Origin: Lachnoclostridium sp. An118
Lineage (GTDB): Bacteria > Bacillota > Clostridia > Lachnospirales > Lachnospiraceae
Assembly: GCF_002160985.1 (NCBI RefSeq)
Contig: NZ_NFLQ01000018.1
Span: forward strand, 1 to 64,000
Direction: 5' to 3'
DNA length: 64,000 nucleotides
Part shown: in pieces, positions 3,251 to 32,217 of the stretch
Layout of the letters: each line of letters begins with the position of its first letter
Position numbering within the stretch: the first letter of the stretch is position 1
The notes under the pieces: generated by a model
Told to the model about the DNA's origin: nothing
What the model saw: only the letters and a program-made list of their open reading frames with translations
Database searches by the model: none
Translations under genes and position numbers: made by a program

Positions 3251-3251
3251 T

Positions 3252-3491: not shown

Positions 3492-3597
3492 ACATTTCCT
3501 CCCAAATGGTATTTTGCAGGATCATTCTTCTGTTACGCCTACATTATATATGGCCGAGCCGCCCGGTCATAGTGGGAACTGTTTCCTTTCCTGACAG

Positions 3598-4041
3598 CTA
3601 TTTCCCCAGGTCCCTGCTCATCAGCACACCATCCTCCACAGGGTCGCTGTAGTATCTCCTCCGGATGCCGTCCTGCACAAACCCATAGTCTGTATAGAAG
3701 GAAATGGCAGGGCCATTGCTCTCCCTCACATCCAGCAGCAGCCTTGTAATGCCCCCCAGCTCGCAGAGATTTTCCAGCTCCAGCAGCAGCCGGGCGCCTA
3801 CCCCCTGCCTCCTCTTCTGAGGGATGACGGCAATCCGGGCAATCTCTCCGTCCTCCAGGGCGTAGTACATGATCAGGTACCCGATAAGCTGCTGGTCCTC
3901 GTACGCCACCAGGAGCAGCGTCCTTTTCTGTCTGTAGCTGTCCAGCAGTGCCCTCTCACTCCAGGGGTCCGGGAATATCTCCGCCTCCAGCCTGGCCACG
4001 GCGGGGATGTCCATTTCTTTCATCTTTCTGATCACAAGCAT
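3598..4041 (-). CDS. rimI: Ribosomal-protein-S18-alanine N-acetyltransferase family
   Basis: This is a 147-residue GNAT acetyltransferase. RimI acetylates the N terminus of ribosomal protein S18 in characterised species. The acetyl-CoA-binding loop reads QKRRQGVGARLL (about residues 76-87), after the beta-strand segment IARIAVIP. It closes with the SFYTDYGFV motif common to RimI proteins. It follows tsaB by 9 nt, and the tsaB-rimI-tsaD order is common in Firmicutes. The exact substrate is inferred from the family. Confidence 0.9.
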   Translation of the reverse strand: MLVIRKMKEMDIPAVARLEAEIFPDPWSERALLDSYRQKRTLLLVAYEDQQLIGYLIMYYALEDGEIARIAVIPQKRRQGVGARLLLELENLCELGGITRLLLDVRESNGPAISFYTDYGFVQDGIRRRYYSDPVEDGVLMSRDLGK

Positions 4042-4050
4042 GTTCCTATC

Positions 4051-4755: not shown

Positions 4756-4780
4756 TGCTGCATCTTCCTTATCTGTATGA

Positions 4781-5218
4781 TCATCGGCCACGGCCTTTTT
4801 CTTCCACAGTGATCCTGCGGAAGTCAAACCCCCGGCCCGGGTCTTTCTCTATCTTGATTTCCACGTAGTGCTCCGGCAGGATTTCCTCTATCAGGTCCGC
4901 CCACTCGATCAGGCTTACGCCCTCCCCGTAAATGCAGTCCTCGTACCCGATCTCATCCATCTCCTCCACGTCGCCGATCCGATACACGTCGAAATGGTAG
5001 AGGGGCATGCGGCCCTCCTCGTAAATCTGCACGATCGTAAAGGTGGGGCTGCTGACAGGCTCCTCTATGCCAAGTCCCTTTGCCAATCCCTTTGTAAACA
5101 CGGTCTTCCCGACCCCCAGATCGCCCACCAGAGTGTATACATCCCCGGGCACGGCTTTCTCTCCAATCTGACGTCCCATATCAAAGGTATCCTTTTCACT
5201 GTTCGACTCAAATACCAT
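4781..5218 (-). CDS. tsaE: tRNA threonylcarbamoyladenosine biosynthesis ATPase TsaE
   Basis: TsaE is the P-loop ATPase that drives turnover of the TsaB-TsaD complex. The Walker A motif GDLGVGKT is at residues 32-39. A family SSPTFTIV segment and a LIEWADLIEE segment follow. The start at 5218 is preceded by AGGAG. The open frame continues further upstream, but that stretch overlaps the preceding membrane-protein gene and is not conserved. The resulting 145 residues match the family. The start overlaps the end of the membrane-protein gene by 11 nt, indicating translational coupling at the head of the t6A operon. Confidence 0.95.
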   Translation of the reverse strand: MVFESNSEKDTFDMGRQIGEKAVPGDVYTLVGDLGVGKTVFTKGLAKGLGIEEPVSSPTFTIVQIYEEGRMPLYHFDVYRIGDVEEMDEIGYEDCIYGEGVSLIEWADLIEEILPEHYVEIKIEKDPGRGFDFRRITVEEKGRGR

Positions 5219-5750
5219 CTGTCTGTCTCCTGTCCTGACTTTTTCTAATGCGCACGGCCGCCCGCGGCACATGGTCCGCTATCATGTCCACCGCCGCACC
5301 GTAGTCATCTCCAAGCTGGGAAACGGGCAGCACCATGGCATGCTTTTTCTCGTCATAGAGAATAAGGATGTGCTTTCTTGAGACGGCCTTTTTCACGTTC
5401 TCCCAGGGCACCTTCTTTTCCCTGTCAGCCGCCACTGTCTTTATGCCCTCCTGGTCAAAAATATACTCCACAGGCTTCACGAATTTCTTCTGTCCCTGGA
5501 GGACTGACACCCTGTTTTTGATCACTATCGGGAAACCGAAGAACAGGAGCAGGGCGAACACCACGAAGAGCACTATCATAAACCATTCCCTCCGTATCCC
5601 AAAGGCAACCGCCAGTCCCGCGTTCAGCGCCCCCAGCACCAGCACGGCTATGCCCGCTCCCCCTGTATATATCTGATACATCATAAACTCTGATATAGCT
5701 TCCGCATCCAGGGTGATCTGTGTCCTTATCTCCTTCTTTTTCTCTTCCAT
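5208..5750 (-). CDS. Two-pass membrane protein, YcxB-like C-terminal domain
   Basis: This 180-residue protein has two adjacent hydrophobic segments (about residues 29-51 and 56-78). A cytoplasmic beta-rich C-terminal domain follows, with the pattern PWENVKKAVSRKHILILY, which resembles YcxB/PH-like membrane proteins of Firmicutes. No catalytic motif is visible. It is the first gene of the minus-strand operon, preceded by AAAGGAG and an extended -10 promoter, and overlaps tsaE. Its function is unknown; co-transcription with t6A genes may only reflect operon convenience. Confidence 0.8.
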   Translation of the reverse strand: MEEKKKEIRTQITLDAEAISEFMMYQIYTGGAGIAVLVLGALNAGLAVAFGIRREWFMIVLFVVFALLLFFGFPIVIKNRVSVLQGQKKFVKPVEYIFDQEGIKTVAADREKKVPWENVKKAVSRKHILILYDEKKHAMVLPVSQLGDDYGAAVDMIADHVPRAAVRIRKSQDRRQTDGI

Positions 5751-5779
5751 TGCACTTCTCCTTTACACCTATGTGGAAC

Positions 5780-5788
5780 ATTATAGCA
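5780..5788 (-). promoter_or_regulatory. Extended -10 promoter of the t6A operon
   Basis: The minus strand reads TGCTATAAT (TGn plus a perfect -10) about 30 nt before the start codon at 5750. No good -35 is present, as allowed for extended -10 promoters. Confidence 0.55.
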
Positions 5789-5874
5789 TATCTTTTTTTC
5801 TTAGGCTACACATGATATACTGTTTTAAAGACTGCGCCAGGCAGCAAAACACGATCTAAAGGAGGCACTCTGCT

Positions 5875-6237
5875 TTGAATTTCACATTTTATCACAACAA
5901 CATCAATGTATATGACCTGGAAAAGTCCCTCGATTTTTACGAAAAGGCCCTGGGGCTTACCGTGACCCGGGAGACGGAGGCTGAGGACGGAAGTTTTAAG
6001 CTTGTCTACCTGGGAGACGGCGCCACGCCCCACCTGCTGGAGCTCACCTGGCTCCGGGACATGGACCGGCCCTATGATCTGGGCGACAACGAATTCCACC
6101 TGGCCTTCCACACGGATGATTTCGAGAAGGCCCACCAGCTCCACAAGGAGATGGGGTGCATCTGCTTTGAGAATGAAGCTATGGGAATCTACTTCATCTC
6201 CGACCCGGACGGCTACTGGCTGGAAATCTGTCCCTAG
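5875..6237 (+). CDS. VOC family protein, glyoxalase I-like
   Basis: The 120-residue single-domain protein has the glyoxalase/vicinal-oxygen-chelate fold. FYHNNINVYDLEKSLDFYEK opens the first beta-alpha-beta-beta-beta unit, and it ends with SDPDGYWLEICP, including the metal-ligand glutamate. It resembles small lactoylglutathione lyase-type proteins, but anaerobes of this kind usually lack glutathione, so the substrate is uncertain. The start is TTG, chosen because AAAGGAGG lies 9 nt upstream and no ATG fits. It is monocistronic, followed by a terminator shared with convergent ribU. Confidence 0.85.
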   Translation: MNFTFYHNNINVYDLEKSLDFYEKALGLTVTRETEAEDGSFKLVYLGDGATPHLLELTWLRDMDRPYDLGDNEFHLAFHTDDFEKAHQLHKEMGCICFENEAMGIYFISDPDGYWLEICP

Positions 6238-6264
6238 CCGCCCGCCAGCGACAGACGCTCATGC

Positions 6265-13257: not shown

Positions 13258-14345
13258 TGAAAAAACTACTTAGTATCTTATTGGCAGCAGTGCTGGCCAT
13301 GTCTCTGCTTGTCGGATGCTCCGGCACAGGCAGCAACAGCAGCACAGAGGACACAGATGAGGCACAGACCACCGAAACGGAAGAAACTTCCTCCAGCGTT
13401 GTGGATCAGATGCTGGCAGATGTGGAGGCCGAGATGGACAGCCAGCTCGGAGAGGTCCCGGAAAAAAGCGCCGGTGAAAAAGTTGGTATTCTGATCAGCT
13501 CCACTTCCAATGAATTCTGGGCTACTATGAAGACGCGCTACGAAGAAGCTGCCGCGGACGCAGATCTTGACATAGAAGTATACGAGGCTTCTGCCGAAGA
13601 TGACGCCGAGGGGCAGCTGGATGCACTTAACACTATGGTATCCATGGATTTCGATGTGATCATCCTCTCACCCATCAACGGTACCAACCTGATTCCCGGC
13701 ATCGTGGCCGCCAATGAGAAGGACATTAAGGTTATCAACCTTGGCCCTGGCGTAGATGAAGCTGCTCTGGAAGAAGCAGGCGGGCATCTGGATGCCAAGA
13801 TCACTGTCAATTTTGAGGATCAGGGAAAAATGGTGGCGGAAGATATCGTAGAAAGACTTGACGGCGAAGGTCAGGTAGCCATTCTGGAAGGTCTCGCAGG
13901 CGCTGCACAGAGCGAGGGACGTGTAAAAGGCGCCGAGGATGTATTTGCACAGAACGAGGGGATTGAGGTCGTAGCAAGCCAGGACTGCAACTGGGATACA
14001 GATACAGCCTACGAGGCAACCCGCGATATCATGACTGCCAACCCGGATGTAAAGGCAATCTTTGCCTGCAATGACAATCTTGCTCTTGCAGCCGTACAGG
14101 CCCTGACAGAGCTGGGCAACAGCGACGTACTGGTATACGGCGTGGACTACACCTCTGACGCGAAAGCTGCTATCGAGGATGGTACTATGATGGGCTCCAT
14201 GACCTATTCAAGCGCTATCTACACGAAAGCTGCCATCTCCATGGCTATGAATCTGGCACAGGGCGGCAGCTATGACGAGCCCCTGTATCTTCCTCTGACA
14301 CTGGTGACACAGGACAATGTGGCAGACATGGACGGTTGGAAATAG
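13257..14345 (+). CDS. Sugar ABC importer, substrate-binding lipoprotein
   Basis: The 362-residue protein has a lipoprotein signal peptide with lipobox LVGC, so Cys21 would be lipidated and the mature protein anchored outside the membrane. A Ser/Thr/Glu-rich linker (about 22-65) follows. The periplasmic-binding-protein type I fold (Peripla_BP_4, RbsB/xylose-like) then starts at VGILISSTSNEFW. SPINGTNL and FACNDNLALAA are typical ligand-pocket loops. The ligand is probably a pentose, nucleoside or related glycoside. The PsuG-like gene three nucleotides downstream argues for a ribosyl compound. Confidence 0.94.
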   Translation: MKKLLSILLAAVLAMSLLVGCSGTGSNSSTEDTDEAQTTETEETSSSVVDQMLADVEAEMDSQLGEVPEKSAGEKVGILISSTSNEFWATMKTRYEEAAADADLDIEVYEASAEDDAEGQLDALNTMVSMDFDVIILSPINGTNLIPGIVAANEKDIKVINLGPGVDEAALEEAGGHLDAKITVNFEDQGKMVAEDIVERLDGEGQVAILEGLAGAAQSEGRVKGAEDVFAQNEGIEVVASQDCNWDTDTAYEATRDIMTANPDVKAIFACNDNLALAAVQALTELGNSDVLVYGVDYTSDAKAAIEDGTMMGSMTYSSAIYTKAAISMAMNLAQGGSYDEPLYLPLTLVTQDNVADMDGWK

Positions 14346-14348
14346 GCC

Positions 14349-15113
14349 ATGAGACATCTGATCGAAACCGCTCTTTTAACTCACGGTCTGTCGTCACTGT
14401 CCAATGAATACATAAAAAAGCAATGGCCGTTTAAGGAAGCAAACCTTGCTTATCTTGAAAATGGCACGGTGAAGACAGGCACTATAGAGGATTACCTGAA
14501 GCTGCGGGAACATCCGGAACAGATAGCACGCATTGACTGCACTGCTCTGGAAAGCGCAAAAGCGCAGGGATTGTCCGGAGCTTTCACGGCCTCTGCCACC
14601 ATGGCTGTGTGCCGTGAGCTGGACATACCTGTGGCAGTCACTGCAGGTATGGGCGGCATTGGCAATGTAGAAGGGGAAGAGCTTTGCCCAGATCTTCCTG
14701 CACTTGAAAGGATACCTGTCATCCTGATTTCAACAGGTCCAAAGGATATGCTGGACAGGACAGCAACTTTTTCCTGGCTCCGTGAGCACGGTGTTTCCGT
14801 AAAGGGGATCAACACCAGTTCCTGTACCGGTTACGTTTTTACCGGCACTCCTCTTCCTCTGGAACCATTTGACAGGAGTCTGCCCATCGCCGCTCCGCTT
14901 CTCCTCATCAACGAGATCCCTGTATCCGACAGGATCACTGACAGAGAAATACTGACAGAAGCCATTCAGGCAGGGCACCAGGCAGCTGCAGAAGGGAAAG
15001 CTTATCATCCTGCTGCCAACAGACGCATCGATGAACGCACAAACGGGTATTCTTCCAGAATTCAGCTGGCTTCTCTGATTGAAAATGCCCGTGCTGCCCA
15101 AAAGCTTCCTTAA
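14349..15113 (+). CDS. Pseudouridine-5'-phosphate glycosidase-like protein
   Basis: PsuG cleaves or forms the C-glycosidic bond of pseudouridine 5'-phosphate. This 254-residue protein is shorter than typical PsuG (about 300). It aligns over its length: IETALLTHGL matches the N-terminal glutamate block, LSGAFTASATM and AVTAGMGGIG the core, STGPKDMLD the catalytic-lysine block, and IENARAA the C-terminal asparagine. The lysine of the usual KxSRRDLP block appears to be Arg and the histidine after GGVH is absent. The substrate may therefore differ. No PfkB-type kinase is adjacent. It starts 3 nt after the binding-protein gene, so uptake and cleavage are likely linked. Confidence 0.75.
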   Translation: MRHLIETALLTHGLSSLSNEYIKKQWPFKEANLAYLENGTVKTGTIEDYLKLREHPEQIARIDCTALESAKAQGLSGAFTASATMAVCRELDIPVAVTAGMGGIGNVEGEELCPDLPALERIPVILISTGPKDMLDRTATFSWLREHGVSVKGINTSSCTGYVFTGTPLPLEPFDRSLPIAAPLLLINEIPVSDRITDREILTEAIQAGHQAAAEGKAYHPAANRRIDERTNGYSSRIQLASLIENARAAQKLP

Positions 15114-15140
15114 AAACATAATAAAGGGAAAAATTGACAC

Positions 15141-15188
15141 AGGGCCATACCGCTCTTCAGATTTTACAGCGGTATGGCCCTCTTTTGT
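15141..15188. terminator. Bidirectional terminator
   Basis: AGGGCCATACCGCT pairs with AGCGGTATGGCCCT, followed by TCTTTTGTT. It ends the sugar operon and can also end the convergent MerR-family gene. Confidence 0.9.
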
Positions 15189-15190
15189 TA

Positions 15191-16033
15191 TCACACGGTT
15201 TTCACCGGCACCTTGATCTTCACTACATAGTCCTCCTCCCCGGCCCCCGCGATGTAGCTTATCATGTCGTACACATAACAGTCCCCTGCAATCTCCAGCC
15301 TTTCTCTCTCCGTGAATTTCAGCAGCTTCTCAATACTTTTCCCAAAGGAATTGTAGGCTCCCTTGTGCATGACTGACGCGAAAGTCCCGGCCGGCTTTCT
15401 CCTGACGTCCTCTCTTCTCCGCCACTCATCTGTCCATATATTCTCCGGTATCTTTGTAAAGAGAAAGCTTTCTTTGAGCTCTCCCTTCTTCAGCGTCTCA
15501 TGCAAAATAATGGAGCCCACAAAGGCATGATTGCGAATGCCGTGAGCCTCGCATTTACGGATATGCTCACCCAGCAGCCGGGCCGGAGCGGCGGTGCTGT
15601 CCCACTCTCTGTATCCAAAGTCCGTGACCAGCAAATACTCGTCTTCATCCCGCTCTATCCTGGGAACGCCGTACCGGGCATCCAGAGCCTCCTCCGTGAT
15701 CTGCACCAGCTCCTGCATAAAGCCTGAGAGCTCCTCCAGCTTCCTTTGCTCCTCTTTGATCCTGCGCTGCTTTTCCCTGAACATCTCCAGGAAATACGCA
15801 GTGTCAAAATTGCGAAAGCATTTCCGTATATCCTCCAGGGAGCTGCCGGTGTATTTCATGGTCTGGATCAGGTCAAAGTCATAGAACTGGGCAGCCGTGT
15901 AATACCGGTAGCCATTGTCCCCCACACAGGCGGGCTTCAGTATGCCAATCCGGTCGTAATGGAAGAGGGTCTCTTTTGTGGTGCCGCACAATGCCGCAAA
16001 CTGTCCTGTTGTAAAAAACCGTTCCGTATTCAT
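15191..16033 (-). CDS. MerR-family regulator with GyrI-like effector domain
   Basis: The 280-residue protein has an N-terminal winged helix (FTTGQFAALCGTTKETLFHYDRI, shown here only as its first part, FTTGQFAALC). The FYDFDLIQTMKYTG region and a coiled-coil dimerisation helix (about 85-115) follow. The C-terminal half (about 125-280) resembles the AraC-effector/GyrI ligand domain of BmrR-type multidrug sensors. It is transcribed divergently from a MATE efflux gene and probably activates it by twisting the long-spacer promoter at 16062-16092. Small hydrophobic drugs are likely ligands by family. Confidence 0.9.
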   Translation of the reverse strand: MNTERFFTTGQFAALCGTTKETLFHYDRIGILKPACVGDNGYRYYTAAQFYDFDLIQTMKYTGSSLEDIRKCFRNFDTAYFLEMFREKQRRIKEEQRKLEELSGFMQELVQITEEALDARYGVPRIERDEDEYLLVTDFGYREWDSTAAPARLLGEHIRKCEAHGIRNHAFVGSIILHETLKKGELKESFLFTKIPENIWTDEWRRREDVRRKPAGTFASVMHKGAYNSFGKSIEKLLKFTERERLEIAGDCYVYDMISYIAGAGEEDYVVKIKVPVKTV

Positions 16034-16061
16034 GCTCCCTGGTCCTTCCTTCTTTTTTCTC

Positions 16062-16092
16062 TTGACTATTGTGTTACCCTATAGTTTACCAT
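16062..16092 (+). promoter_or_regulatory. MerR-type promoter of the MATE gene
   Basis: TTGACT (16062-16067) and TACCAT (16087-16092) are separated by 19 bp, too long for unaided sigma-A and typical of MerR-activated promoters. An imperfect inverted repeat, GTTACCC and GTTTAC around TATA, lies in the spacer. Confidence 0.5.
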
Positions 16093-16117
16093 TCCTTTTT
16101 GAGGAGAACAAGCATTT

Positions 16118-17548
16118 ATGAATACAGATAACTACAATACAAAAAACACAACCCATCCACAGCAGGACACCCCTCCGGGCAGCACCGGGGAGCACAACCG
16201 GATGTTCGGAGGGATGCCGCCCACCAGGCTCTTCTTCCGCTGCGCCATCCCCAACATGATCAGCATGGCAGTCGTCTCCATGTACACGATTGCCGACGGG
16301 ATCTTTGTGGGCTACTATATCGGTGCGGAGGCTCTGGCCGCCATCAACCTGGTCATGCCTCTTATCATGATGAGCTTTGCTTTTTCAGACATGGTAGCCG
16401 TGGGCTCCTCTGTCCAGATTGCCATCTGGCTTGGAAAGAAAGATGAAAGGATGGCAGGGCGCATCTTTTCCACCGCCTGCCTGCTGATCCTTATTTCTGC
16501 CCTGGTCATGGGGACGCTGGCCTGGCTGTTTTCCTATCCGCTGGTGCATCTGCTGGGAGCCTCCGGGGAAGTGGCAGACCTGGCAGTAAAATACATGCGG
16601 GTCTATGCAGCCTTCTCTGTCCTTATCATGCACTTTTTTGCCGTGGACAATTATCTGCGCATCTGCGGGAAGGTCCACTACAGCATGGCCATGAACGTGG
16701 GCATATCTCTGGCAAACATTGTGCTGGACTGGCTCTTCATCGGCGTCCTGGGCTGGGGGATCGAGTCTGCCGCCCTGGCCTCCTGCCTCAGCCTGATGTG
16801 TGGGAACATCCTCTGCTTTCTCCCGTTCTTCGCCGGAAAGCTGCCCCTTCATTTCATGCGGCAGTGGATCAGACCCGGACTGCTGGGGAATATCATCGCC
16901 AACGGGAGCTCGGAGTTTTTCAACAACATCTCAGGCTCTGTGTGTATGATCATCTTCAACGCTGCTCTCCTGTCCGCCGGAGGATTTATGGCAGTGGCAG
17001 CCTTCAGCATCATCATGTACGTGGACAGTGTGGTAAAGGCATTGCTTTTTGGTATGGGCGATGCCCTGCAGCCGGCTATCAGCTACAATTACGGGGCGGG
17101 AAGTCCCGCGCGGATCTGGGCGATCGAGAGGAGGGTCCAGGCTGCCGGGCTGCTGCTGGCTCTTTTGGTGCTCGCCTTCATGCAGCTTGGCGGCGAAGCG
17201 CTGATCGGACTCTTTGCAAAGGAGGATGCGGAGCTGCTCAGCATCAGCGTCAGAGGCATGCGTCTTTTCTCCCTGTCCTACCTGTTTACATGGTGCGCCA
17301 TTTTGTCCGGCTCCTTCTTCACCGCTCTGAACCGGCCCGTCTTCTCCCTTATGACTGCCGCAGGGCAGACCCTGCTGTTCCCTGTGCTCTTTCTCTCTGT
17401 CCTGCCCCGGTTCCTTGGGCTGGACGGTATCTGGCTGTCCCCGGTACTGGCAGGGGCTGCCTCCTTCCTGGTCTGCCTCCTGTTCCTGCTGGACACCAGC
17501 CGGCGCCTGTCCTCCGGGTCCGGACAGCAGGCACAGCGGCCGCTGTGA
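16118..17548 (+). CDS. MATE-family efflux transporter
   Basis: The 476-residue protein has about twelve hydrophobic helices in two MatE repeats, and exports cationic or amphipathic compounds using Na+ or H+ in characterised relatives. The N terminus has an unusual polar tail of about 30 residues rich in Asn, Thr and Pro before PTRLFFRCAIPNM. GDALQPAISYNYGAG (about 310-324) is a MATE family string. It is divergent from a MerR-type drug sensor, which points to inducible efflux. A GAGGAG site lies 11 nt before the ATG. Confidence 0.94.
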   Translation: MNTDNYNTKNTTHPQQDTPPGSTGEHNRMFGGMPPTRLFFRCAIPNMISMAVVSMYTIADGIFVGYYIGAEALAAINLVMPLIMMSFAFSDMVAVGSSVQIAIWLGKKDERMAGRIFSTACLLILISALVMGTLAWLFSYPLVHLLGASGEVADLAVKYMRVYAAFSVLIMHFFAVDNYLRICGKVHYSMAMNVGISLANIVLDWLFIGVLGWGIESAALASCLSLMCGNILCFLPFFAGKLPLHFMRQWIRPGLLGNIIANGSSEFFNNISGSVCMIIFNAALLSAGGFMAVAAFSIIMYVDSVVKALLFGMGDALQPAISYNYGAGSPARIWAIERRVQAAGLLLALLVLAFMQLGGEALIGLFAKEDAELLSISVRGMRLFSLSYLFTWCAILSGSFFTALNRPVFSLMTAAGQTLLFPVLFLSVLPRFLGLDGIWLSPVLAGAASFLVCLLFLLDTSRRLSSGSGQQAQRPL

Positions 17549-20691: not shown

Positions 20692-21675
20692 CTATTTACC
20701 TTGCTTTTTCAGCCGGATCCACTCTTTCCAGCTTTCCTCCTCGGGCTGATCCGTCCTGTCCCTCAAAAATTCATAGACTTTCCCGACATGCTCCGGATCC
20801 TCCTCCAGGATATCCGCCGTTTCCCCCGCGCTGCATCCCTTTATCATCTTCCTGCGAATCATCAGAAACATCTGATATTCCCGTCCCTCTGCGCGTCCCT
20901 CTGCCAGGCCCTCTGCACGTCCCTCTGCACGTCCCTCTGCACGTCCCTCTGCACGTCCCTCTGCACGTCCCTCTGCCAGGCCCTCCTCACGGGCCCGCCT
21001 TTTCTCGATGATCTTCTCTTCCCACTCCTGCATATATTTCACTCCAATCTCTTCGCTCGATTTGATCATGGCGATCCTGCGCTGCAGCTCCTGTATTTTC
21101 TGGCTGCGGCAGGAGCTGCTGACCTCCTCTGTGGTGTGCTCTATGTACCGGAGCAGCTCGATCAGCTCCTCTGACACCCCCGCAGGGTCCGTCCCCCTGG
21201 TGTTCAGGAAAATCCGACACGCTCCGTCCTCCAAGGCGATCTCCGGCTCCTCGTCACACCTCATGCGGAAGGTATAGCGGTACCGTCCCTTCCCGAACAG
21301 GTCAAAGGGAGCGATCATGATCGTGTACACATCGTTCATCCGGTCAAAGTCCACCTCCCCCGGCTCCAGAAGCTTGGTGTCGATCATGCCCTGGTACAGA
21401 CGGCTGCGGCGGGGAAGGTTTTTTGTGTCCTCCCTCTGCACCTCCGCATCGTAAATCGTCTCCTCCGTATCCATGGCCCAGACGTCCATGCGGATGAAGC
21501 GGAAGAGGGGAGAACTCCTCTTTTCCTTCTCTGCCTGGGGCGGGTATTTGAGGAGGATGTCCCTCCCGAGGATGATCTCCAGGATCATCTGCATGATAAC
21601 GGGATCCTCCATAGCCTCCGCAAACAGGAAGCGGTCCAGCAGGTTCAGGTCCTTCAGTGCTTTGTGAAACGCCAT
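20692..21675 (-). CDS. Rpn-family PD-(D/E)XK nuclease/putative transposase
   Basis: The 327-residue protein opens with FHKALKDLNLLDRFLF and continues with a nuclease-like core, YDAEVQREDTKNLPRRSRLY, where D-x-E-x-Q resembles the Rpn/PD-(D/E)XK active site. Rpn proteins promote RecA-independent recombination in E. coli. The helical middle is followed by a tandem AEGR/AEGL repeat (about 230-262), then a short C-terminal domain. The start at 21675 is set by AAAGGAG 7-8 nt upstream. It stands alone between the SOS operon and the broken ABC locus. A possible promoter (TTGTCA, 17 bp, TATAAT at 21691-21719) lies unusually close to the start codon. Confidence 0.85.
   Translation of the reverse strand: MAFHKALKDLNLLDRFLFAEAMEDPVIMQMILEIILGRDILLKYPPQAEKEKRSSPLFRFIRMDVWAMDTEETIYDAEVQREDTKNLPRRSRLYQGMIDTKLLEPGEVDFDRMNDVYTIMIAPFDLFGKGRYRYTFRMRCDEEPEIALEDGACRIFLNTRGTDPAGVSEELIELLRYIEHTTEEVSSSCRSQKIQELQRRIAMIKSSEEIGVKYMQEWEEKIIEKRRAREEGLAEGRAEGRAEGRAEGRAEGRAEGLAEGRAEGREYQMFLMIRRKMIKGCSAGETADILEEDPEHVGKVYEFLRDRTDQPEEESWKEWIRLKKQGK
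20881..20988. repeat. 12-bp tandem repeat encoding AEG(R/L)
   Basis: A 12-bp unit CGTCCCTCTGCA and near-copies are repeated about eight times inside the rpn-like gene. On the coding strand they encode Ala-Glu-Gly-Arg, with Leu in some copies. Units in the run are nearly identical at the DNA level, so copy number can change in frame by slippage. Confidence 0.95.
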
Positions 21676-21719
21676 TCTCATTCTCCTTTCATTATAAACG
21701 GCAATGCACAAGTTGACAA

Positions 21720-21950
21720 TAAAAACCTGAAAATCAGACTGCTCCCGTCAAACCTGTGCGTGAACAAGTGCTGTGAGGGGTAGACAAATGGATAGACACT
21801 CCTCGAAAAAAGACTTCATAAGATGTTGCCAGAGACTGCTCCGGCCAAAGATTTTCCTTCACATAAAGAAGTAAGCAAAGATTAACATATCCGCGCACAA
21901 AAGTCAATCAAAATCCAAAAACACGAGCCAAATATGAAGTTCAAAACAAA
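21720..21950. other. Unassigned AT-rich intergenic stretch
   Basis: No ORF with a ribosome site, no tRNA and no clear repeat were seen here. It separates the rpn-like gene from the terminator of the ABC permease remnant and could hold decayed sequence. Confidence 0.4.
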
Positions 21951-21953
21951 ATC

Positions 21954-21998
21954 AGCCGAAGGACAGAGCCATTTCATAGAAACGGCCTGTCCTCCGGC
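21954..21998 (-). terminator. Terminator of the truncated permease
   Basis: GCCGGAGGACAG and CTGTCCTTCGGC form a long hairpin on the minus strand, followed by TGATTTTGTTTTG. Confidence 0.75.
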
Positions 21999-22036
21999 AC
22001 GGTTTTTCCTGTTTTCCTTTTTCTGTTCCGTTATCT

Positions 22037-24532
22037 CTACTCCATCCGCAGTCTCTCCACCACACTCTGCTTCTCCAGGTTCAGGAAGCACAGGCAGGGG
22101 ATGAGGACTGCCAGGATGAAGAGCAGCGGCGTACACACACCCAGGGGCAGAAGCGTAAAGCGGAAGGTGGAAAAATCATCCGCCGCCGTCACGGCCCGCA
22201 CGCCGATGCCCACCGCCAGGGCGCTCACAATCCAGGAGGCAAGAAGGGTCAGTCCTGCATAGTACAGTCCCTCATACACAAGCATCCGTCGGAGCTGCCG
22301 CTTCGTCATGCCCACGCTCTGTATCATGGCGAACTCTCTCTTCCTGGAGACGATGGCCGTGATCATGGAGTTGGCAAAATTCAGCACGCCCACCAGGGCG
22401 ATGATGACGCTGATGGCATTTCCCATGACCGCGGAGGACCTGGTCTCCTCCTCGTACTGCTGCGCCATAGTCTGGCGGGAGGTGACGGGAAGCGTCCTGT
22501 CCACGGAGGCGGTGTACCCGTCCAGCAGCTCCTGCATGGCATCCACCTGGTCCTCCTCCACATTGACGTAGAGCCTGCGCATGGTATTGTCCGGATACAG
22601 CTCCCGGAAGGAGTCAGAGGGGATGACATACTCCATCTCAAGGCCTGTATCCTCCCCCTCCTCCAGGGCTCCGTCCATGACGGAGGCATCCGGCAGCACC
22701 ACCGCCATCACCTGGTAGGTCCTGCCCTCCAGCTCCACGGTCTGGCCGACAGAGGCTGCGGGCAGCGTCTCCTGGCGGTCCGCCTCCTCTCTGGATAGGG
22801 ACGCGGTGGATACGGCCAGGACGTACTCTCCCGTGGCAAATGCCTCCGGGTCAAAGGAGCCTGCCAGGATGTGGTCCTCATCTGTCATCGCCTCCAGAGG
22901 GATCCCATCCAACCCGAAGAGGGTGACTGTGGCCCGCTTCTCTCTGATGGAGTTCTCCGCGTCCTGGGCTCCCTGTGCATCGTAGCTGGCCCAGTCAGCC
23001 AGGACGTCTTCATTGTAGTAGGCGGCCAGATCAGCGGCTGTCCCGTCGTCCATCTGCCAGATAAGCTGGTGGGACCAGGCGTGGCCGGTCTCCTCCACCC
23101 CGTCTGCCTGCTCCACCTGGCTCACAAGCTCCTGATCCAGCGTGGTGCCCTGGGGATCGTAGCCTCCCGTGTAGTCCTCGCTGGAGGCATCGGAGAGTTC
23201 AAAGTCGGCGATGGTCAGGCCGGAGAGATATTTCTCCATGTCAAAAGCCGCATTTTTGGCGTAAAAGCAGCTCAGCAGCACAAGCCCCAGGGACAGGGAG
23301 CAGACCACCAGGGCCGTCCGCTTTTTGTTCCGCCCCAGGTTGGCCCAGGCCATCTCGTGGAGGGAGGCGCTCCCCCGCCTCTTTGCCGTCTTCTTCGCCT
23401 TGTCCGGCGCGTCGCAGGCCCGCAGGGCCTCCACAGGAGACACCTTCCCCGCAAGGCGGGCCGGGCGCAGGCAGGAGATCAGGACCGTAACCCAGGCAAA
23501 GAGGGCCGACCCGATGAATATCACCGGGCTTACCGAGACCACACTCTCCCCCTCCATCATGCCAAGGAGGATGGGGACAAGGAGAAAGCCAAGGCCCCAG
23601 CCCAGGACCAGACCGATGGGGATACCGGTGAGGCAGAGCCTGTCAGCCTGTCCGTAGATCAGCCTGCGAAGCTGCCTTTTCGTCATGCCCAGCGTCTTCA
23701 GCTTGCCGTAGAACTGCACATCCGCGGTGACGCTGATCTGGAAAATGTTGTAGATGATGAGATACCCCGCCACAAAGACAAGGATCATCCCCAGGTACAT
23801 AGGAAGGCTCTCCGAAAAGGCCGTGGCCCCCATCTCCGGCGAGTAGGCCAGGTTCACACCGTACTCCAGCCCGATCAGGTCTGTGTCTGCCAGGATGCCA
23901 TCCATGGTCTCCTCGATATCTCTGTCACTGTATAGACTCACCTGGGCCATATGGGTGCCAAGGACCTGCCCCTCCGCAGGGCCGTCGGCGCCTCCTGTCA
24001 TCTGGTCTGCAAAAGATCTGGATACCCAGGCCATGCTGGCGTAGCTGGAGGCATTCCCCTCCCAGAAGCCGCAGAGGGTGAAGGTGGAGGCTGTGGTCTC
24101 CTGGCTGTTCAGATCCGGCCGCCACTCAAGCGTCACCTGCTGCCCCAGCTCGTGGGGAACTCCTAAGTGATCCAGCACTGTGGTGTCCACCGCCAGCTCG
24201 CCTGCCGCCTCCGGCATCCGGCCGGTGTCAGGCCAGGCAAAGGAGTGGGAGGCGTAGGGATCGTCCGCCCAGCGGATCTCGGTCTGATGACCCTGCAGCT
24301 CTCTGTTTTCCGCCACTCCCAGTACAATGCTCTCGCCCACCTCCTTCACGTCCGGATGAGCGTCGATGAGAGCCGCTTCCTCCTCCGTAATACTCTTAAA
24401 AGAGGCCTGGGCGTCGTAGCCGGTCTGGCGGAAGGTCATCTCCACCATGTTTTTGCTCATGCTCTGGGCCAGCGTGAACAGAGTGGTGAACATGAGCGTG
24501 GTCATGAGGATGGCCAGCACAGCCACTAGGCG
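22037..24532 (-). pseudogene. FtsX-type ABC permease, N-terminally fused remnant
   Basis: About 830 residues of an ABC permease with two FtsX-like domains remain, of the kind used in peptide or antimicrobial export and resistance. Helix 1 is RLVAVLAILMTTLMF. A large extracellular region, helices near VPILLGMM and a second FtsX domain ending LEKQSVVERLRME follow. The usual start is missing: the homologous sequence begins abruptly near 24532, inside DNA that upstream encodes a histidine kinase in another frame. The open frame runs back to an ATG at 24622, but those residues derive from kinase DNA. The partner ATPase gene is absent. Expression from an internal start cannot be excluded. Confidence 0.8.
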
Positions 24533-24935
24533 TCTTGACCTGATGAGAGATGTCGCTGACCAGCTCCTGGATAGTCTGCTTGTCCCTCTGGCTCTCCCTT
24601 CTGGCCTCCCTTGCAATATCATAAAACTGCAGGAGCTTCCCCTGCACCTTTGCTGTCAGGCTGTCCTCGTAAATCTGGGGCCACCTGTCCGGCTCCCCGG
24701 CGATGAGGCTGTCCAGGATGTCGCAGAGGGAGTCGGCAAAATCCGCCACCTGCCGCCGCACCCAGGCCCGCCACAGAGCCGCCAGGAGAAAAAGGCCCGC
24801 ACATATCCCAAGGAGCCCGTACCTCACCTCCCGGCGGGGGACATACGCCCACAAAAGCCATACCATGGCTCCGAATAAAACAGCCGCTCCAAGAAACAGA
24901 AGCGCCTCCTGGAGCCTTCTCCTCTTCTCTCTCAT
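24528..24935 (-). pseudogene. Sensor histidine kinase, C-terminally deleted
   Basis: The first 136 residues of a kinase are intact: two close membrane helices (about 12-31 and 39-56) with almost no extracellular loop, then the dimerisation helix ending LVSDISHQVKTP with phosphoacceptor His131. Homology stops at 24528. The frame then continues about 43 residues through permease DNA in a different frame to a stop at 24396. The ATP-binding domain is therefore lost and the protein cannot autophosphorylate. Its start abuts the response-regulator stop codon. This is one side of a deletion that also removed the expected ATPase gene. Confidence 0.85.
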
Positions 24936-25628
24936 CTATCTTCCCCCTGTCCATATGTAGCCCATGCCCCGGACTGTCTTGATATAGGTGTGCTCCCCGT
25001 CCTCGATCTTGGCCCGCAGTCGGTTCATGGTGACGGTCAGCGTGTGGTCGTCGATAAAATTCCCCTCACTGTCCCACAGCTTTCCCAGGAGAGTCTGCCT
25101 GGTGAGCACATTTCCCCCGTTCTCTGTCAGCGTCCGCAGCAGCTTGTACTCGTTGGGGGTGATGGCAATCTGCTCCTCTCCCCTCCTGGCTGTCAGAGAG
25201 GCAAAATCCAGGCACAGAAAGCCATCCTCCCACCGGTCCTTCGGGGCAGGCTCCCTGCCGCCGGCATGCCGCAGGGCAGCCTCCACTCTCTTGAGGAGTA
25301 TCTTCATGCTGAAGGGCTTTGTCACATAGTCGTCCGCTCCCAGATCAAAGCCTGCCACCACGTCCTCCTCCAGGTCATTGGCGGTGAGGAAGATGACAGG
25401 AAGGCCGGACTCCCTCTCCTTCAGCTCCCGGCACAGGTCAAACCCGCTGCCATCGGGCAGATTGACATCCAGTATGACCAGGTCAAAAGTGTCCTCCCCG
25501 GCAAGCTGCCGGGCTTTCTTTATATTGTAGGCGGCCACGGTGAGATAGCCGTTCATATCCAGTTCAAAACAAAGACCTGCGCTCAGCGTCAGGTCATCCT
25601 CCACTACCATGATCTTTTCCGCACTCAT
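24936..25628 (-). CDS. OmpR/PhoB-family response regulator
   Basis: The 230-residue protein has a receiver domain with acidic pair Asp11-Asp12, phosphoacceptor Asp54 in VILDVNLPDG, and the KPF motif near residue 104. A C-terminal winged helix (about 135-228) includes ITPNEYKLLRTLTENGG. In intact loci such regulators control the adjoining ABC transporter. Here the cognate kinase is truncated and the transporter broken, so the regulator may be orphaned or driven by another kinase. The ATG follows AAGGAG. Confidence 0.95.
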   Translation of the reverse strand: MSAEKIMVVEDDLTLSAGLCFELDMNGYLTVAAYNIKKARQLAGEDTFDLVILDVNLPDGSGFDLCRELKERESGLPVIFLTANDLEEDVVAGFDLGADDYVTKPFSMKILLKRVEAALRHAGGREPAPKDRWEDGFLCLDFASLTARRGEEQIAITPNEYKLLRTLTENGGNVLTRQTLLGKLWDSEGNFIDDHTLTVTMNRLRAKIEDGEHTYIKTVRGMGYIWTGGR

Positions 25629-25747
25629 AACTTCATTCTCCTTGTCATTAAGATCCTGCAGCCGGCTTTACAGCGCCGACATCACCATTATATTTCCGCC
25701 GTCCCCAAAGGGCAAGAAAAAGCTCCCTCTGCCCGGAACTTTTTGAT

Positions 25748-25775
25748 TTGCAATATCGGGAATCTATTGTACAAT
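25748..25775 (+). promoter_or_regulatory. Promoter of the potassium channel gene
   Basis: TTGCAA (25748-25753), a 16-bp spacer and TACAAT (25770-25775) lie 35 nt before the start codon. Confidence 0.65.
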
Positions 25776-25810
25776 ATCTGTGAGAGCTTAATGCGGGGAG
25801 GGCCTTCTGT

Positions 25811-27224: not shown

Positions 27225-27266
27225 AAGGCCGGAAACGCTCATTCACAAGCGCTTCCGGCCTTTTTC
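27225..27266. terminator. Terminator between tRNA-Trp and the cupin gene
   Basis: AAGGCCGGAAACGCT and AGCGCTTCCGGCCTT form a hairpin with TTTTT on the plus strand and TTTCC on the minus strand. It can end both convergent transcripts. Confidence 0.85.
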
Positions 27267-27278
27267 TCACTGAAAGAC

Positions 27279-27614
27279 TTAGCTTTCCTTTTCGATCAGC
27301 ATCCACACCAATGTGGCGTCCTCCTCCGAGTCGTTCATGCTCTTGTGCAGCTCCCCGGCGGGGATGTAGGACGCGTCCCCCGGTCCCAGCTCCCTGATCT
27401 TGCCGCAGCTCTCACACTTGACTTTCCCGGATATGATATAGGAGTACTCGTCCCCTGTGTGGGCGGCAAAAGGCACCACCGTCCCCGGCGGGAACACGGC
27501 GTATCCCATGGACACCCGTCCGTCAGTGGGGCAGTCGGCCCCGAAGAAATCTGTCATCTCCACATGGTCTTCCCGCACTCTGACGGGCACCTCCTGATTT
27601 TTCCTGACGATCAT
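27279..27614 (-). CDS. Single-domain cupin protein
   Basis: The 111-residue protein is one cupin barrel. Motif 1 includes PFAAHTGDEYSYIISGKV and motif 2 GDASYIPAGELHKSMN, which together supply possible metal ligands (His, Glu, His). A CESCGK string between them adds two cysteines, unusual for a small cupin. It overlaps the end of hyuB by 4 nt (ATGA), so it belongs to the hydantoinase-like operon and may act on the same substrate or sense it. The reaction is unknown. Confidence 0.8.
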   Translation of the reverse strand: MIVRKNQEVPVRVREDHVEMTDFFGADCPTDGRVSMGYAVFPPGTVVPFAAHTGDEYSYIISGKVKCESCGKIRELGPGDASYIPAGELHKSMNDSEEDATLVWMLIEKES

Positions 27615-29350
27615 AAGCCCGCCTCCTGTCTTCTCTTCTCTGTGAAGCCTGTGACCTCAAAGGTCTCCGGGTCCACAATGACACCGTAGTCCTCCCTGGC
27701 CTGCTCCAGGGAAATATATTCATTCTTCACATCCCAGGCCACGCTCTCAGGCTCCCTCTCCAGGGGATTGCCGTAGCCGCCTCCTGTGCAGGTCACCATG
27801 CGCACCACGTCCCCCTTATTCATGACGCGCCTTGCGGTGATCCCCATGGGGCCCTCCACCTTGCCGTCCGCATCATGGAACTCAAAATAATTGTAGGAGC
27901 CGTCTTTTCCGCCTGCCGCTCCCCAGGCCGGGAATTTGTTGCGGCCAAAGGAGGCGGTGAAGAGCTGTCCGTCTGTCATGGCCCGGTAGGAGCGGACCGC
28001 TCCGCTTCCGCCGCGGTATTTGCCGGCTCCGGTCCCGTCTGTGTGGAGGCTGTACTCATCCACCATGATCCCGTACCGGTTCTCCGCCATCTCCACAGGC
28101 ACATTGTAGGTCTCTCCGTCACCCACGCAGAACTGTCCCACTTCTCCGTCCTTTCCGTCGCTTGCTCCCCAGCCGCCGCCGGTGGGCTCCACGATGAGGA
28201 AGGGCTCGCCGCTCCCCTGCTTTGTCCCTGCCAGGACCACAGAGCAGACGGAGAGCATATGGCCTGCGCCCAGCATCTCCGGGAAGACCGGGGCCAGAGC
28301 CCGCCACACTACGTCCGAGGAGTAGATCATGCTCTCAAAATAGCAGGATGTGGGCGCCGGCGCATGACATTTCAGCACAGAGCCGTCCTCCGCAAAGATC
28401 CGCATGGGCTCGAACACGCCGTCGTTGACAGCCAGCTCCGGCCCGAGGATGGACATGTAGATCACCTTCACTCCGGCACACAGGGAGCTGTAGCCCGTGT
28501 TGATGGGGCTGGCCACCTGGGGGCTGCTGCCGGTGAAATCCGCGATAAATTCGTCATCCGTGATGGTGATCTTCACCTTTACCTTCACCAGGTTCCCGTA
28601 GCCGTCGTCATCCATGTACTCTTCCATCTCCCAGGTCCCCTTTGGAAGCTCTTTGATGCGGTTGCGGGCAATCTTCTCCCCCTGGTCCAGGAGCCGCTTC
28701 ATGGACTCCTTTACCACCTCCACCGTATATTTGTCGCAGAGCTCACCTATCCTCCGGTAGCCGGTCCTAAGGGACGCGATCTGTCCCCACATGTCTCCCT
28801 CGGAGGTCTCCGGGAAGCGCACGTTGCTCTTGATGGTCTCAAGAAGAGGCTGGCATATCTCTCCCCTGTCCAGCAGCTTTACGCCCGAGAACCTGAGTCC
28901 CTCCTGGAAGGCGTCCGAGGAGTCCGTGGTGAAAGAGCCCGCCGCCATGCCGCCCACATCAGACCAGTGGGCCTTGTTTCCGATAAACGCGATCAGCTCC
29001 TCCCTGTAAAAGACCGGCATCACCATGCCGATGTCGGAGAGGTGGGTGCCGCCTCCCATGTACGGGTCGTTGATCAGGTACACATCTCCCGGGTGGAGGT
29101 TTTCCTTCCCGTATTTTTCTATGATTTCCTGGATCATGGGCGCTATCAGGCCGATAAAGCCGCAGGCGCCGTTGCCCTGGGTCAGCAGCTTCCCGTTCAC
29201 ATCCGCAATGCCGCTGGCATAGTCCAGAGTCTCGTAGATGATGGGGCTCATGGATGTCCGGGCAAATGCGTAGAACACCTCATTGCTGACTGCGATCAGA
29301 GAGTCCTTTACAATGTCCAGTGTGACCGGACTTACTTTTACTTCCGCCAT
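27611..29350 (-). CDS. hyuB: Hydantoinase B/oxoprolinase family subunit
   Basis: The 579-residue protein has the HyuB fold. The segment HPGDVYLINDPYMGGGTHLSD (only GDVYLINDPYMGGGTH needed) and the later GGWGASDGKDGEVGQFC region are typical. With HyuA it hydrolyses cyclic amides such as hydantoins or 5-oxoproline at the cost of ATP, or acts as a carboxylase in related acetone/acetophenone enzymes. The exact substrate cannot be read from sequence. It overlaps hyuA by 1 nt (TAATG) and the cupin gene by 4 nt, so the three are translationally coupled in the order hyuA-hyuB-cupin. Confidence 0.9.
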   Translation of the reverse strand: MAEVKVSPVTLDIVKDSLIAVSNEVFYAFARTSMSPIIYETLDYASGIADVNGKLLTQGNGACGFIGLIAPMIQEIIEKYGKENLHPGDVYLINDPYMGGGTHLSDIGMVMPVFYREELIAFIGNKAHWSDVGGMAAGSFTTDSSDAFQEGLRFSGVKLLDRGEICQPLLETIKSNVRFPETSEGDMWGQIASLRTGYRRIGELCDKYTVEVVKESMKRLLDQGEKIARNRIKELPKGTWEMEEYMDDDGYGNLVKVKVKITITDDEFIADFTGSSPQVASPINTGYSSLCAGVKVIYMSILGPELAVNDGVFEPMRIFAEDGSVLKCHAPAPTSCYFESMIYSSDVVWRALAPVFPEMLGAGHMLSVCSVVLAGTKQGSGEPFLIVEPTGGGWGASDGKDGEVGQFCVGDGETYNVPVEMAENRYGIMVDEYSLHTDGTGAGKYRGGSGAVRSYRAMTDGQLFTASFGRNKFPAWGAAGGKDGSYNYFEFHDADGKVEGPMGITARRVMNKGDVVRMVTCTGGGYGNPLEREPESVAWDVKNEYISLEQAREDYGVIVDPETFEVTGFTEKRRQEAGL

Positions 29351-31398
29351 TACTCCTGCACCTCCGTTTCGATGATCAGATTTCCGTAGACATCCACAGT
29401 GACGCGCTGTCCCTTCGCCGCCACTGTGGAGGCTGCCGCTTCCTCCACGATGACAGGCCCGTCAAGGCTTGCGCCGCTGCCCAGCTTCTCCCGCAGGTAG
29501 ACCGGCGTATCGATCCAGCCCTCCTCCTCAAAATAGACTCGCCTCGTCTCCTTCCTGGCGGTCTCCACCGGGCCCTCCTGGGGCGGGATGTGAGCCAGCT
29601 CCGGCTTTGTCAGCCGCCCGTACGCCACAAGATGCAGGTTTACGATCTCCGTGGGCGTGTCCGGAAGCCGGAAGGTATAGAAATGTTCATGGGTATCGTG
29701 AAATCTCCGGATGATCTCCTCCTTTGTCTCCTCGCTCCAGGGGATGGGCGGAACATTGACCTTCACCGTATGCTCCTGTCCCATGTACCGCATGTCCGCG
29801 ATATAATTGCAGACAATATTTTCCTCCGGGATATTTTCTTTTTCAAACTGCTCCCGGGCCTGGGAGAGAAGGCCGGTCCACATGCCGTTCAGCTCTTCGG
29901 CAGTGACCTCGTTCATCCTGCGGATGTTGGTCTGGATATAGTCGTGGCGCACATCTGTCATCAGCATGCCCCAGGCAGAAAATACAGGCGCCGCGATGGG
30001 CACGATGACCTTGCGGATGTTCAGCTCCTTCGCCAGTCGGGCGCAGTGCATGGGGCCGCCGCCTCCAAAGGCCACCATGGTAAAGTCTCTCGGGTCATAG
30101 CCCCTGCGCACGGAGATCAGCTTCAGGGCATTGTACATATTGGCCTCCGCCACCCGGAGGATGCTCATGGCCGCCTCGTCCGTGTCCATCCCGAAGGCGT
30201 CTCCCACCTTTTCCTGGATGGCTCCCCGCACGGCGTCCATATCCACCTGGTTGTCAAAATTCTCCGCGGACAGCCGCCCTGTCACCAGGCAGGCGTCTGT
30301 GGTGGTAGGCTCTGTGCCGCCGATACCGTAGGCCACCGGCCCGGGAACCGCCCCCGCCGACTGAGGTCCCACCTTCAGGGAGCCGGCTTCGTCGATCCAG
30401 GCGATGGAGCCTCCGCCGTTTCCGATCTCCACGATGTCCACCACCGGGGCCATGATGGGATAGCCCGCATAGCTCTCCGTGCGCTCGATGCGGTACTCTG
30501 TGGTCACCTTCACCTCCCCGTTGTCGATGAGGGAGCATTTCGCCGTGGTGCCGCCCACGTCAAAGGCGATGATGTTGTTCTCCCCGATCATTTTCCCCAG
30601 GATGGCAGAGCCGTACACGCCCGCCACCGGTCCGGACTCCACCATGTTGATGGGAGTCTGCTTCGCCTGCTCAAAGGTGGTGGTGCCTCCGTTGGACTGC
30701 ATGATATATTCCTTGGCATCGCACCCTGCCTCCTTCAGGCGCCGGTCCAGGTTGTCTATGTAAGAGGATGCCACGGGCATGACATAGGAGTTCAGCGCCA
30801 CCGTGGAGGTGCGCTCATACTCTCTCCACTCCTTCGTCACTTCGATGGAGGAGGTGACGAAAACCTCCGGCCACAGCCTGCGGACCAGCTCCACCGTGCG
30901 CTTCTCGTGCTCGTCATTTGCGTAGGAGTTGATATAGCACACCGCGATGGCCTCCACCTGCTCCTTCTTAAAATACTCTACTGCTGCCCTGATGTCCTCC
31001 TCCGCAAGGGGCGTCACGACCTTCCCGTCATAGCTGACTCTCTCCGACACCTCCCGGCGCAGATACCGGGGGATAAAGGGCCTCGGCTTGGCAAAGACCA
31101 TGTTAAAAAGGTCCGGTCTGTTGCACCTGGCGATCTCCAGCACATCCCGGAATCCCTTTGTGGTGATAAGGCCTGTCTTTGCCCCCTTGCGCTCTGTCAG
31201 GGCGTTGATGATGGTCGTTGTCCCGTGGATGAAATCCTCGATCTCCTCCGGACGGACCCCGCTCTTTTCAATCACCCGGATAACGCCCTCCTCAAAATTC
31301 GGCGGCGTGGTGTGACTCTTCGTCAGGATCGTCTTGCCCTGGTCATCCACAGCGACCAGGTCCGTAAATGTACCGCCAATGTCTGTCGCAACTCGCAA
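29350..31398 (-). CDS. hyuA: Hydantoinase A/oxoprolinase family ATPase subunit
   Basis: The 682-residue protein begins with the ASKHA phosphate loop DIGGTFTDLVAVD. HGTTTIINALTERKGAKTGL lies at about residues 59-78, and a second nucleotide-binding strand is IAFDVGGTTAKCSL. It is the ATP-dependent half of hydantoinase/oxoprolinase enzymes. The start is TTG, preceded by AAGGTGG; no ATG is suitable. It lies 55 nt after the cupin-sensor XRE regulator, probably in the same transcript. No amidohydrolase or racemase is adjacent, so a hydantoin pathway is not certain. Confidence 0.9.
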   Translation of the reverse strand: MRVATDIGGTFTDLVAVDDQGKTILTKSHTTPPNFEEGVIRVIEKSGVRPEEIEDFIHGTTTIINALTERKGAKTGLITTKGFRDVLEIARCNRPDLFNMVFAKPRPFIPRYLRREVSERVSYDGKVVTPLAEEDIRAAVEYFKKEQVEAIAVCYINSYANDEHEKRTVELVRRLWPEVFVTSSIEVTKEWREYERTSTVALNSYVMPVASSYIDNLDRRLKEAGCDAKEYIMQSNGGTTTFEQAKQTPINMVESGPVAGVYGSAILGKMIGENNIIAFDVGGTTAKCSLIDNGEVKVTTEYRIERTESYAGYPIMAPVVDIVEIGNGGGSIAWIDEAGSLKVGPQSAGAVPGPVAYGIGGTEPTTTDACLVTGRLSAENFDNQVDMDAVRGAIQEKVGDAFGMDTDEAAMSILRVAEANMYNALKLISVRRGYDPRDFTMVAFGGGGPMHCARLAKELNIRKVIVPIAAPVFSAWGMLMTDVRHDYIQTNIRRMNEVTAEELNGMWTGLLSQAREQFEKENIPEENIVCNYIADMRYMGQEHTVKVNVPPIPWSEETKEEIIRRFHDTHEHFYTFRLPDTPTEIVNLHLVAYGRLTKPELAHIPPQEGPVETARKETRRVYFEEEGWIDTPVYLREKLGSGASLDGPVIVEEAAASTVAAKGQRVTVDVYGNLIIETEVQE

Positions 31399-31453
31399 TG
31401 TAATCCCACCTTTCTTTCTGGCTGTGTTTTCCGGCTATACGTAAAGCCGCAGG

Positions 31454-32005
31454 CTAAAATATAGTCGGTGTTACTATACATAAAAAGACCAGTTCCCGGT
31501 CCTCTATGTTCACGATGCTGTGCAGAAGAGTGGATGGATAGTGGATGGACTCTCCCTCTGTCACCACATACTCCTTCCCCTCCACTGTAAATTTTGCCGT
31601 TCCCTCCAGTATATAGATAAACTCCTCCCCCTCGTGGGTGCAGGGCTCAAAATCGCTTCTCAAAGGCTCCATCCGGAGCAGAAGACTCTCCAGCCTCCTC
31701 CCCTCAAATCTTCCGCTCAGGCGCTCATACCCCGCATACTTCTTCTCCAGGCCCATGATCCCGGTCCCGTCGCTCTCCCGGTGGACAAAGCTGCCATAGC
31801 TCTCCGGCTCATCGTCAAACAGGTCCCGCATGGTGATGTGCAGGGCCTCCGCAATCTTCTTGAGGGACACCAGCGTGATGGAGGAGACGCCCCGCTCAAA
31901 CTGGGACAGAAAGCTCACGGACAGCTCTGTCCTCTCGCTCAGCTCCTTCAGTGTGATATTGTTTTCTCTGCGGATCTTCCGTATTTTACTGCTGACACTC
32001 TCCAT
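31454..32005 (-). CDS. XRE-family regulator with cupin sensor domain
   Basis: The 183-residue protein has an N-terminal helix-turn-helix (KIRRENNITLKELSERTELS, about residues 7-26). A C-terminal cupin follows with FEPCTHEGEEFIYILEGTAKF (here cited by its core, HEGEEFIYILEG). Such proteins (PuuR/SutR-like) usually sense the small-molecule substrate of the neighbouring operon. It is first in the hyu operon. Its promoter overlaps a perfect 31-bp palindrome, so it probably represses its own operon until inducer binds. Confidence 0.92.
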   Translation of the reverse strand: MESVSSKIRKIRRENNITLKELSERTELSVSFLSQFERGVSSITLVSLKKIAEALHITMRDLFDDEPESYGSFVHRESDGTGIMGLEKKYAGYERLSGRFEGRRLESLLLRMEPLRSDFEPCTHEGEEFIYILEGTAKFTVEGKEYVVTEGESIHYPSTLLHSIVNIEDRELVFLCIVTPTIF

Positions 32006-32043
32006 ATCTCTCCCTCAAATTCCATTGTATTTTCATTCTTCAC

Positions 32044-32074
32044 AAAATAATTACAGTACTACTGTAATTATTTT
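32044..32074. promoter_or_regulatory. 31-bp perfect palindrome, likely operator
   Basis: Left arm AAAATAATTACAGTA and right arm TACTGTAATTATTTT are exact reverse complements around a single central C. The right arm covers the -10 box of the XRE-cupin/hyu promoter, so a bound repressor would exclude RNA polymerase. Confidence 0.85.
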
Positions 32075-32098
32075 ATCTCTGCGCTATACAAAAGTCAA
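32070..32098 (-). promoter_or_regulatory. Promoter of the XRE-cupin/hyu operon
   Basis: The minus strand carries TTGACT (32093-32098), a 17-bp spacer and TAAAAT (32070-32075). The -10 overlaps the palindrome. Confidence 0.8.
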
Positions 32099-32217
32099 GC
32101 ACCAGGACAAAGGTAAGCCCACTTTCTCAGTCCCTCTTCCTGTAAACCTCCCCGTCATACCCCGCACGCTTCTCTCATATAATGAAGAGACAACTGCAAG
32201 AGCAAGGATACAGCCCT

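Follow-up and report, generated by a model that had tools for sequence, protein, structure and literature searches.

The locus described here is very probably a scar left when about 4.8 kb was recently lost, in a single deletion, from the interior of a six-gene operon for a two-component system and ABC transporters, and the module that this operon encoded is predicted to be dead. It is found on the minus strand of the window, which is the 64,000-nucleotide stretch of Lachnoclostridium sp. An118 DNA that was analysed. An intact OmpR/PhoB-type response regulator of 230 aa (24936..25628; Pfam Response_reg and Trans_reg_C), now without a kinase, is followed by two open reading frames that overlap in different frames. 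The first, at 24935-24396, is the kinase frame with 179 aa; the second, at 24622-22037, is the permease frame with 861 aa.

To find corresponding regions, the organism's own genome and 60 relatives were searched at the DNA level. The closest relative, genome G005, showed approximately 90% DNA identity and was syntenic on both sides of the operon. In G005, the window region was split, with the permease matching contig C33 at 14156-16648 and the regulator and kinase start matching 21450-22555. The operon in G005 was ordered as response regulator, histidine kinase, ATPase 1, permease 1, ATPase 2 and permease 2, the last five proteins being 340, 242, 879, 223 and 854 aa in size, and all six proteins had a 100% match in Eubacterium sp. 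ER2 (NZ_JPJE01000034.1). The window regulator was 96% identical to that of G005. Kinase homology in the window ended, as a sequence-only reading of the locus had claimed, at the KTP just after the H box (24536-24528), corresponding to kinase residues 134-136. The resulting kinase stump (24527..24935) covered residues 1-136 of about 340 with 94% identity to the G005 kinase and comprised two hydrophobic helices and the beginning of the phospho-acceptor domain. In the intact G005 kinase, Pfam placed HisKA at 123-187 and HATPase_c at 233-339; because the stump ends at residue 136, the window retains only the first part of HisKA, with its histidine, and no ATP-binding domain.

The same reading had let permease homology begin with RLVAVLAI in another frame. 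The switch of frame was real, but this start was two codons too early, since the R and L (24532-24527) are kinase DNA read in another frame and permease homology begins at the V codon at 24526, which corresponds to residue 25 of G005 permease 2. The join thus lies between 24527 and 24526 (24526..24527). Downstream of it, the frame of the FtsX-like permease 2 remained open (22037..24526; Pfam FtsX in two stretches), with 92.5% identity to G005 permease 2 over 829 window codons. Frame reading further indicated that the kinase frame runs on out of frame within permease DNA to a TAA (24396..24526), and that the novel N-terminal part of the permease frame (24527..24622) is kinase DNA in the other frame.

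Both sides of the join matched a single G005 operon, with order, orientation and flanks all preserved, so the join is not a chance one, and the deletion between kinase and permease proposed from the sequence was borne out. Its extent had been underestimated. The kinase ATP-binding domain, an ABC ATPase gene and the permease start are gone as proposed, but a second ABC pair had been missed. Likewise, the presumed order of regulator, kinase, ATPase and permease named genes that do occur in G005, but two ATPase-permease pairs are present there and the survivor in the window is the second permease. With G005 as a stand-in, approximately 4,805 bp (L022 6650-11454) are missing: the kinase from residue 137 to its end at 340, both ATPases, the whole of permease 1 and the N-terminal 24 residues of permease 2. 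The ancestral ends of the window species are here represented by G005, which differs by about 10% in DNA. The 34-base junction occurred once in the organism's own genome and, with up to three mismatches allowed, in none of the ten other genus genomes, so the possibility that relatives share the fused arrangement was not upheld. Each species was represented by one genome, and the scar may be fixed in its species or belong to a single isolate.

The six-gene order was whole and contiguous in four loci of four genomes, namely G005, G013, G307 and Lachnospiraceae A77_70.CF.DSS (L043); flank synteny was established for G005, and the loci of the other three were compared by gene order. In L044, L040, L041 and G290 the order was consistent as far as the contigs reach. 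It was not universal: in G257, a gap of about 9 kb that holds another module separated the regulator, kinase and ATPase 1 from ATPase 2 and permease 2, and the ATPase 2-permease 2 pair stood without this regulator next to it in the stretches read from G167, L042, G296, G025, G004 (C11) and G001 (C182). In G001 and G004, another permease occupied the first slot, and ATPase 2 was not followed by permease 2; the ATPase 2 relative there (83-86% identity; L071 13151-13816 and L078 9306-9974) had no permease 2 next to it in the DNA read. This arrangement may reflect a loss or may be an older variant. The arrangement in the window is nevertheless derived, however universal the six-gene order may be, as shown by its truncated kinase and out-of-frame join.

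The consequences for the module can be read from what was lost. The stump would be unable to phosphorylate because its ATP-binding domain is absent, which would leave the regulator without a kinase. Comparison of the start region with G005 indicated that the native start codon and ribosome-binding site of permease 2 are gone, and by eye no well-placed Shine-Dalgarno sequence was seen for the ATG of the permease frame at 24622. The permease would thus be translated poorly or not at all and would have no dedicated ATPase. With the kinase, the permease start and the ATPases lost, the module as a whole is predicted to be dead. The region upstream of the regulator (25629..25810) was largely conserved in the alignment, with a -35/-10 pair read by eye as TTGCCC-17-TATAAT in the window, TTGTCC and TATAAT in G005, and TTGTCC and TATAAA in G009; on account of this conservation, the operon remnant probably continues to be transcribed. 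The organism's own genome contained at least five further modules with matches to regulator, kinase, ATPase and permease (contigs C1, C9, C34, C55 and C23, some of these loci ending inside genes). Since these are of the same general kind, the loss of the module was probably tolerable.

Comparison of the deletion ends with the intact locus, where a short direct repeat had been thought possible, gave none beyond chance. The longest word common to the G005 ends within 40 bp was six bases, a length reached in 346 of 500 shuffles. TGGC was present no more than one base from the join on each side, and by eye the G005 sequences gave no clean overlap; a 5-base overlap reported by BLAST at the join contained mismatches against G005 and is not established as real microhomology. 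As no long repeat flanks the deletion, we infer that it arose by illegitimate joining, that is, by end joining or replication slippage. As the cause in the window, homologous recombination of one ATPase-permease pair with the other was rejected, since the breakpoints fall within the kinase and close to the beginning of permease 2, which are not paralogous stretches; such recombination is compatible with the ATPase 1/2 hybrid of G009 described below. A short kinase word searched in the window had no match, and no match to phage records was found.

Between a DinB-like gene and permease 2, the window carries an Rpn-like gene of the PD-(D/E)XK type (20692-21711, minus strand; Pfam PDDEXK_2) with AEGR-type repeats. 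In the window this gene adjoins the operon, as does an internally deleted copy in G009; it is absent beside the intact operon of G005, and tblastn gave no match to it in L025 and L080, the pieces of G006 that were examined. Given this and the presence of the family somewhere in 10 of the 11 genus genomes, a role for this nuclease gene was rejected. Elsewhere in the window, a block at about 27225-32144 with two large frames (579 and 682 aa), putatively hydantoinase/oxoprolinase-like, did not align to the syntenic G005 and G009 contigs.

The age of the event was approached with codon models of permease 2, which covered 811 of the 829 codons after omission of gaps and of codons around the G009 frameshift. 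Under a free-ratio model, omega was 0.083 for the window, 0.102 for G005 and 0.098 for G009, and a separate value for the window was unsupported (0.089 versus 0.089 for the rest, p 0.98), so that relaxed constraint was not seen. The final share of the window branch that could have been unconstrained was at most about 9% (log-likelihood drop of 1.47 at 0.08 and of 2.04 at 0.10), compared with at most about 5% for G009; the bound for the intact G005 branch was about 8%, similar to that of the window, which sets the resolution at roughly 8-10% of a branch. Separate window values were likewise unsupported for the regulator (0.169 versus 0.060, p 0.24) and for two control genes of the window, an ion channel (p 0.58) and the DinB-like gene (p 0.28), whereas the fit for the kinase stump (136 codons, three taxa) was unstable and was not used. 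For the window and G009, either the events are recent or selection still acts on the permease, since a low omega is equally expected of a permease that still functions. Recency is the more likely of the two, because the window has lost the permease start codon, the ribosome-binding site and the ATPases, and the permease of G009 is frameshifted. The recent date that had been suggested from the open frame is supported. Absence of relaxation is what a recent event would give; it does not speak against a scar, nor does it prove decay.

The same operon was found broken in other genomes. In the one-contig genome G006, the kinase was joined at about residue 157, out of frame, to permease 2 at about residue 530. 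In G009, the regulator stopped at about residue 152, where an out-of-frame join led into ATPase 1 at about residue 81, with AGGA common to both G005 sides of this join by eye; the ATPase itself was a hybrid that passes from ATPase 1 to ATPase 2 sequence near DEPTGNLDT. Permease 2 of G009 was frameshifted at a short near-duplicate sequence (L023 ~4285-4306). G010, whose flanks are 99-100% identical to those of G006, was without 5,783 bp that include the whole operon remnant (L025 ~489-6256 compared with L089 and L090). As the ends of this gap fall inside two long open frames of G006, the sequences point to a deletion in G010. By eye, the G010 join showed about 2 bp of microhomology. A sequence of about 77 bp just past the end of G006 permease 2 (L025 3202-3280) had 15 matches in G010 at 79-91% identity and resembles a small dispersed repeat. 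In G031, which belongs to another genus, the regulator was cut at about residue 173 and followed directly, in a different frame, by the kinase from close to its beginning; the kinase also contained an in-frame TAG (L074 ~3139-4268, L073). This break is weaker evidence, because it lies near contig ends in a 170-contig draft.

Within the genus, a regulator of at least 70% identity was present in 6 of the 11 genomes, and regulators of 43-52% identity were excluded as paralogues. Three of the six operons were broken, each at a different place (window, G006 and G009), and the kinase reached its end in the other three (G005, G004 and G001). A kinase query misses truncated kinases, G006 falling below its cut-off, and a regulator query was used instead for 397 family genomes. 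It yielded 19 loci in 18 genomes, including the window and G006, and in all 17 of the other loci the kinase extended to residue 338-340 with no stop in the aligned part. The regulator query in turn misses cut regulators: G009 was below the cut-off (1e-80 with the window regulator), and G031, with a cut regulator spread across two contigs, was missed. A Fisher test that is descriptive and ignores relatedness gave p 0.011 for 3 of 6 genus loci against 0 of 17 outside; restricted to whole-regulator loci, and again ignoring relatedness, the contrast was 2 of 5 against 0 of 17 (p 0.043). Adding G031 weakened it to 3 of 6 against 1 of 18 (p ~0.035, by hand). Breakage confined to the genus is not claimed, because G031, outside it, is also broken.

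These results bear on three other ways of reading the locus. An assembly error, in which the join is false and the organism carries an intact operon, is quite improbable. The genome is a draft of 57 contigs, which gives such an error some room, but the ends hold no repeat that could mislead an assembler, their longest shared word being of the chance length given above. Nor was the lost segment found on other contigs of this 99.99%-complete assembly, where only DNA of 65-73% identity (matches of at least 100 bases) was detected, so that the missing genes, which the sequence-only reading had allowed might survive in a collapsed assembly, were not recovered elsewhere in it; moreover, a like scar occurs in the same operon of the one-contig G006. 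There is a similarly slim chance that the fused locus works as a streamlined unit, in which the permease would be translated and would borrow a paralogous ATPase while the stump or the free regulator takes on a new role. The 861 open codons of the permease frame, its omega that is not raised, the largely conserved regulator promoter region and the presence of genome ATPases that are 60-67% identical to ATPase 2 in the matched parts all suit such a unit. Against it stand the loss of the native start codon and its GGGGG-type ribosome-binding site, candidate starts that look poorly placed, the out-of-frame join and the lack of the fusion in the ten other genus genomes. In addition, G006 and G009 broke elsewhere, and the permease of G009 is frameshifted.

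The third reading takes the breaks together and holds that loss is repeatedly favoured. Broken alleles would then be recurrent, recent and mostly short-lived, and purifying selection would keep the intact operon in the long term, in a balance between a conditional benefit, for example peptide resistance, and the cost of carriage. Its cases would be the recent breaks in the window and G009, with G006, G010 and G031 as further ones; it is a tentative and rather unlikely account, though clearly less so than the previous two. A single recent internal deletion that killed the module is by far the best explanation of the window locus.

The intact operon resembles Bce-type systems of peptide-antibiotic sensing and resistance (BceRS-BceAB), in which a regulator, a short-linker two-helix kinase and an FtsX-like ABC transporter are likewise encoded together. 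In PMC3023708, Bce-type kinases are described as having two transmembrane segments and a linker of under 11 residues. The hydropathy peaks of the G005 kinase and the window stump lay at 11-29 and 37-55, seven residues apart, within that description. The intact relatives differ in having two ATPase-permease pairs. Their permeases, of about 855-880 aa, also have two long stretches between hydrophobic segments, whereas BceB is described as having ten helices and a single large loop, which follows helix 7 and precedes helix 8 (PMC3023708). By hydropathy only, nine peaks were counted in permease 1, ten in G005 permease 2 (some touching) and eight in the window frame; G005 permease 2 had a long gap after peak 7 and another after peak 1, the latter being absent from the BceB description. 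For the duplicated permeases of ADOP (NCBIfam TIGR03434), the whole-protein score was 53.5 bits, below the cut-off of 622.3. The abstract of PMC3023708 also describes a dynamic history of transfers, duplications and losses of Bce-like modules, and the loss of such a module as such is therefore not new. In flux sensing, as described in PMC10314905, signalling requires the transporter. If the intact module uses flux sensing, the deletion would have removed sensing and pumping together.

A literature search for such deletions in this group gave none. Ordinary bacterial deletion pseudogenes take the form of gene-fusion scars, with one internal deletion, a truncated 5' gene, an out-of-frame join and no long repeat at the ends. 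The window scar is like them in each of these respects; unlike them, the same operon has been broken by different deletions in several related species. The scar itself is thus ordinary, and the repeated breakage is mildly interesting. By itself, the scar explains a misleading gene set: annotation would list a regulator along with a short kinase and an ABC permease and so imply that they cooperate, while the signalling and pumping parts are gone from the window locus. The different breaks in related species suggest this operon as a place to test whether the loss of such a module can bring an advantage.
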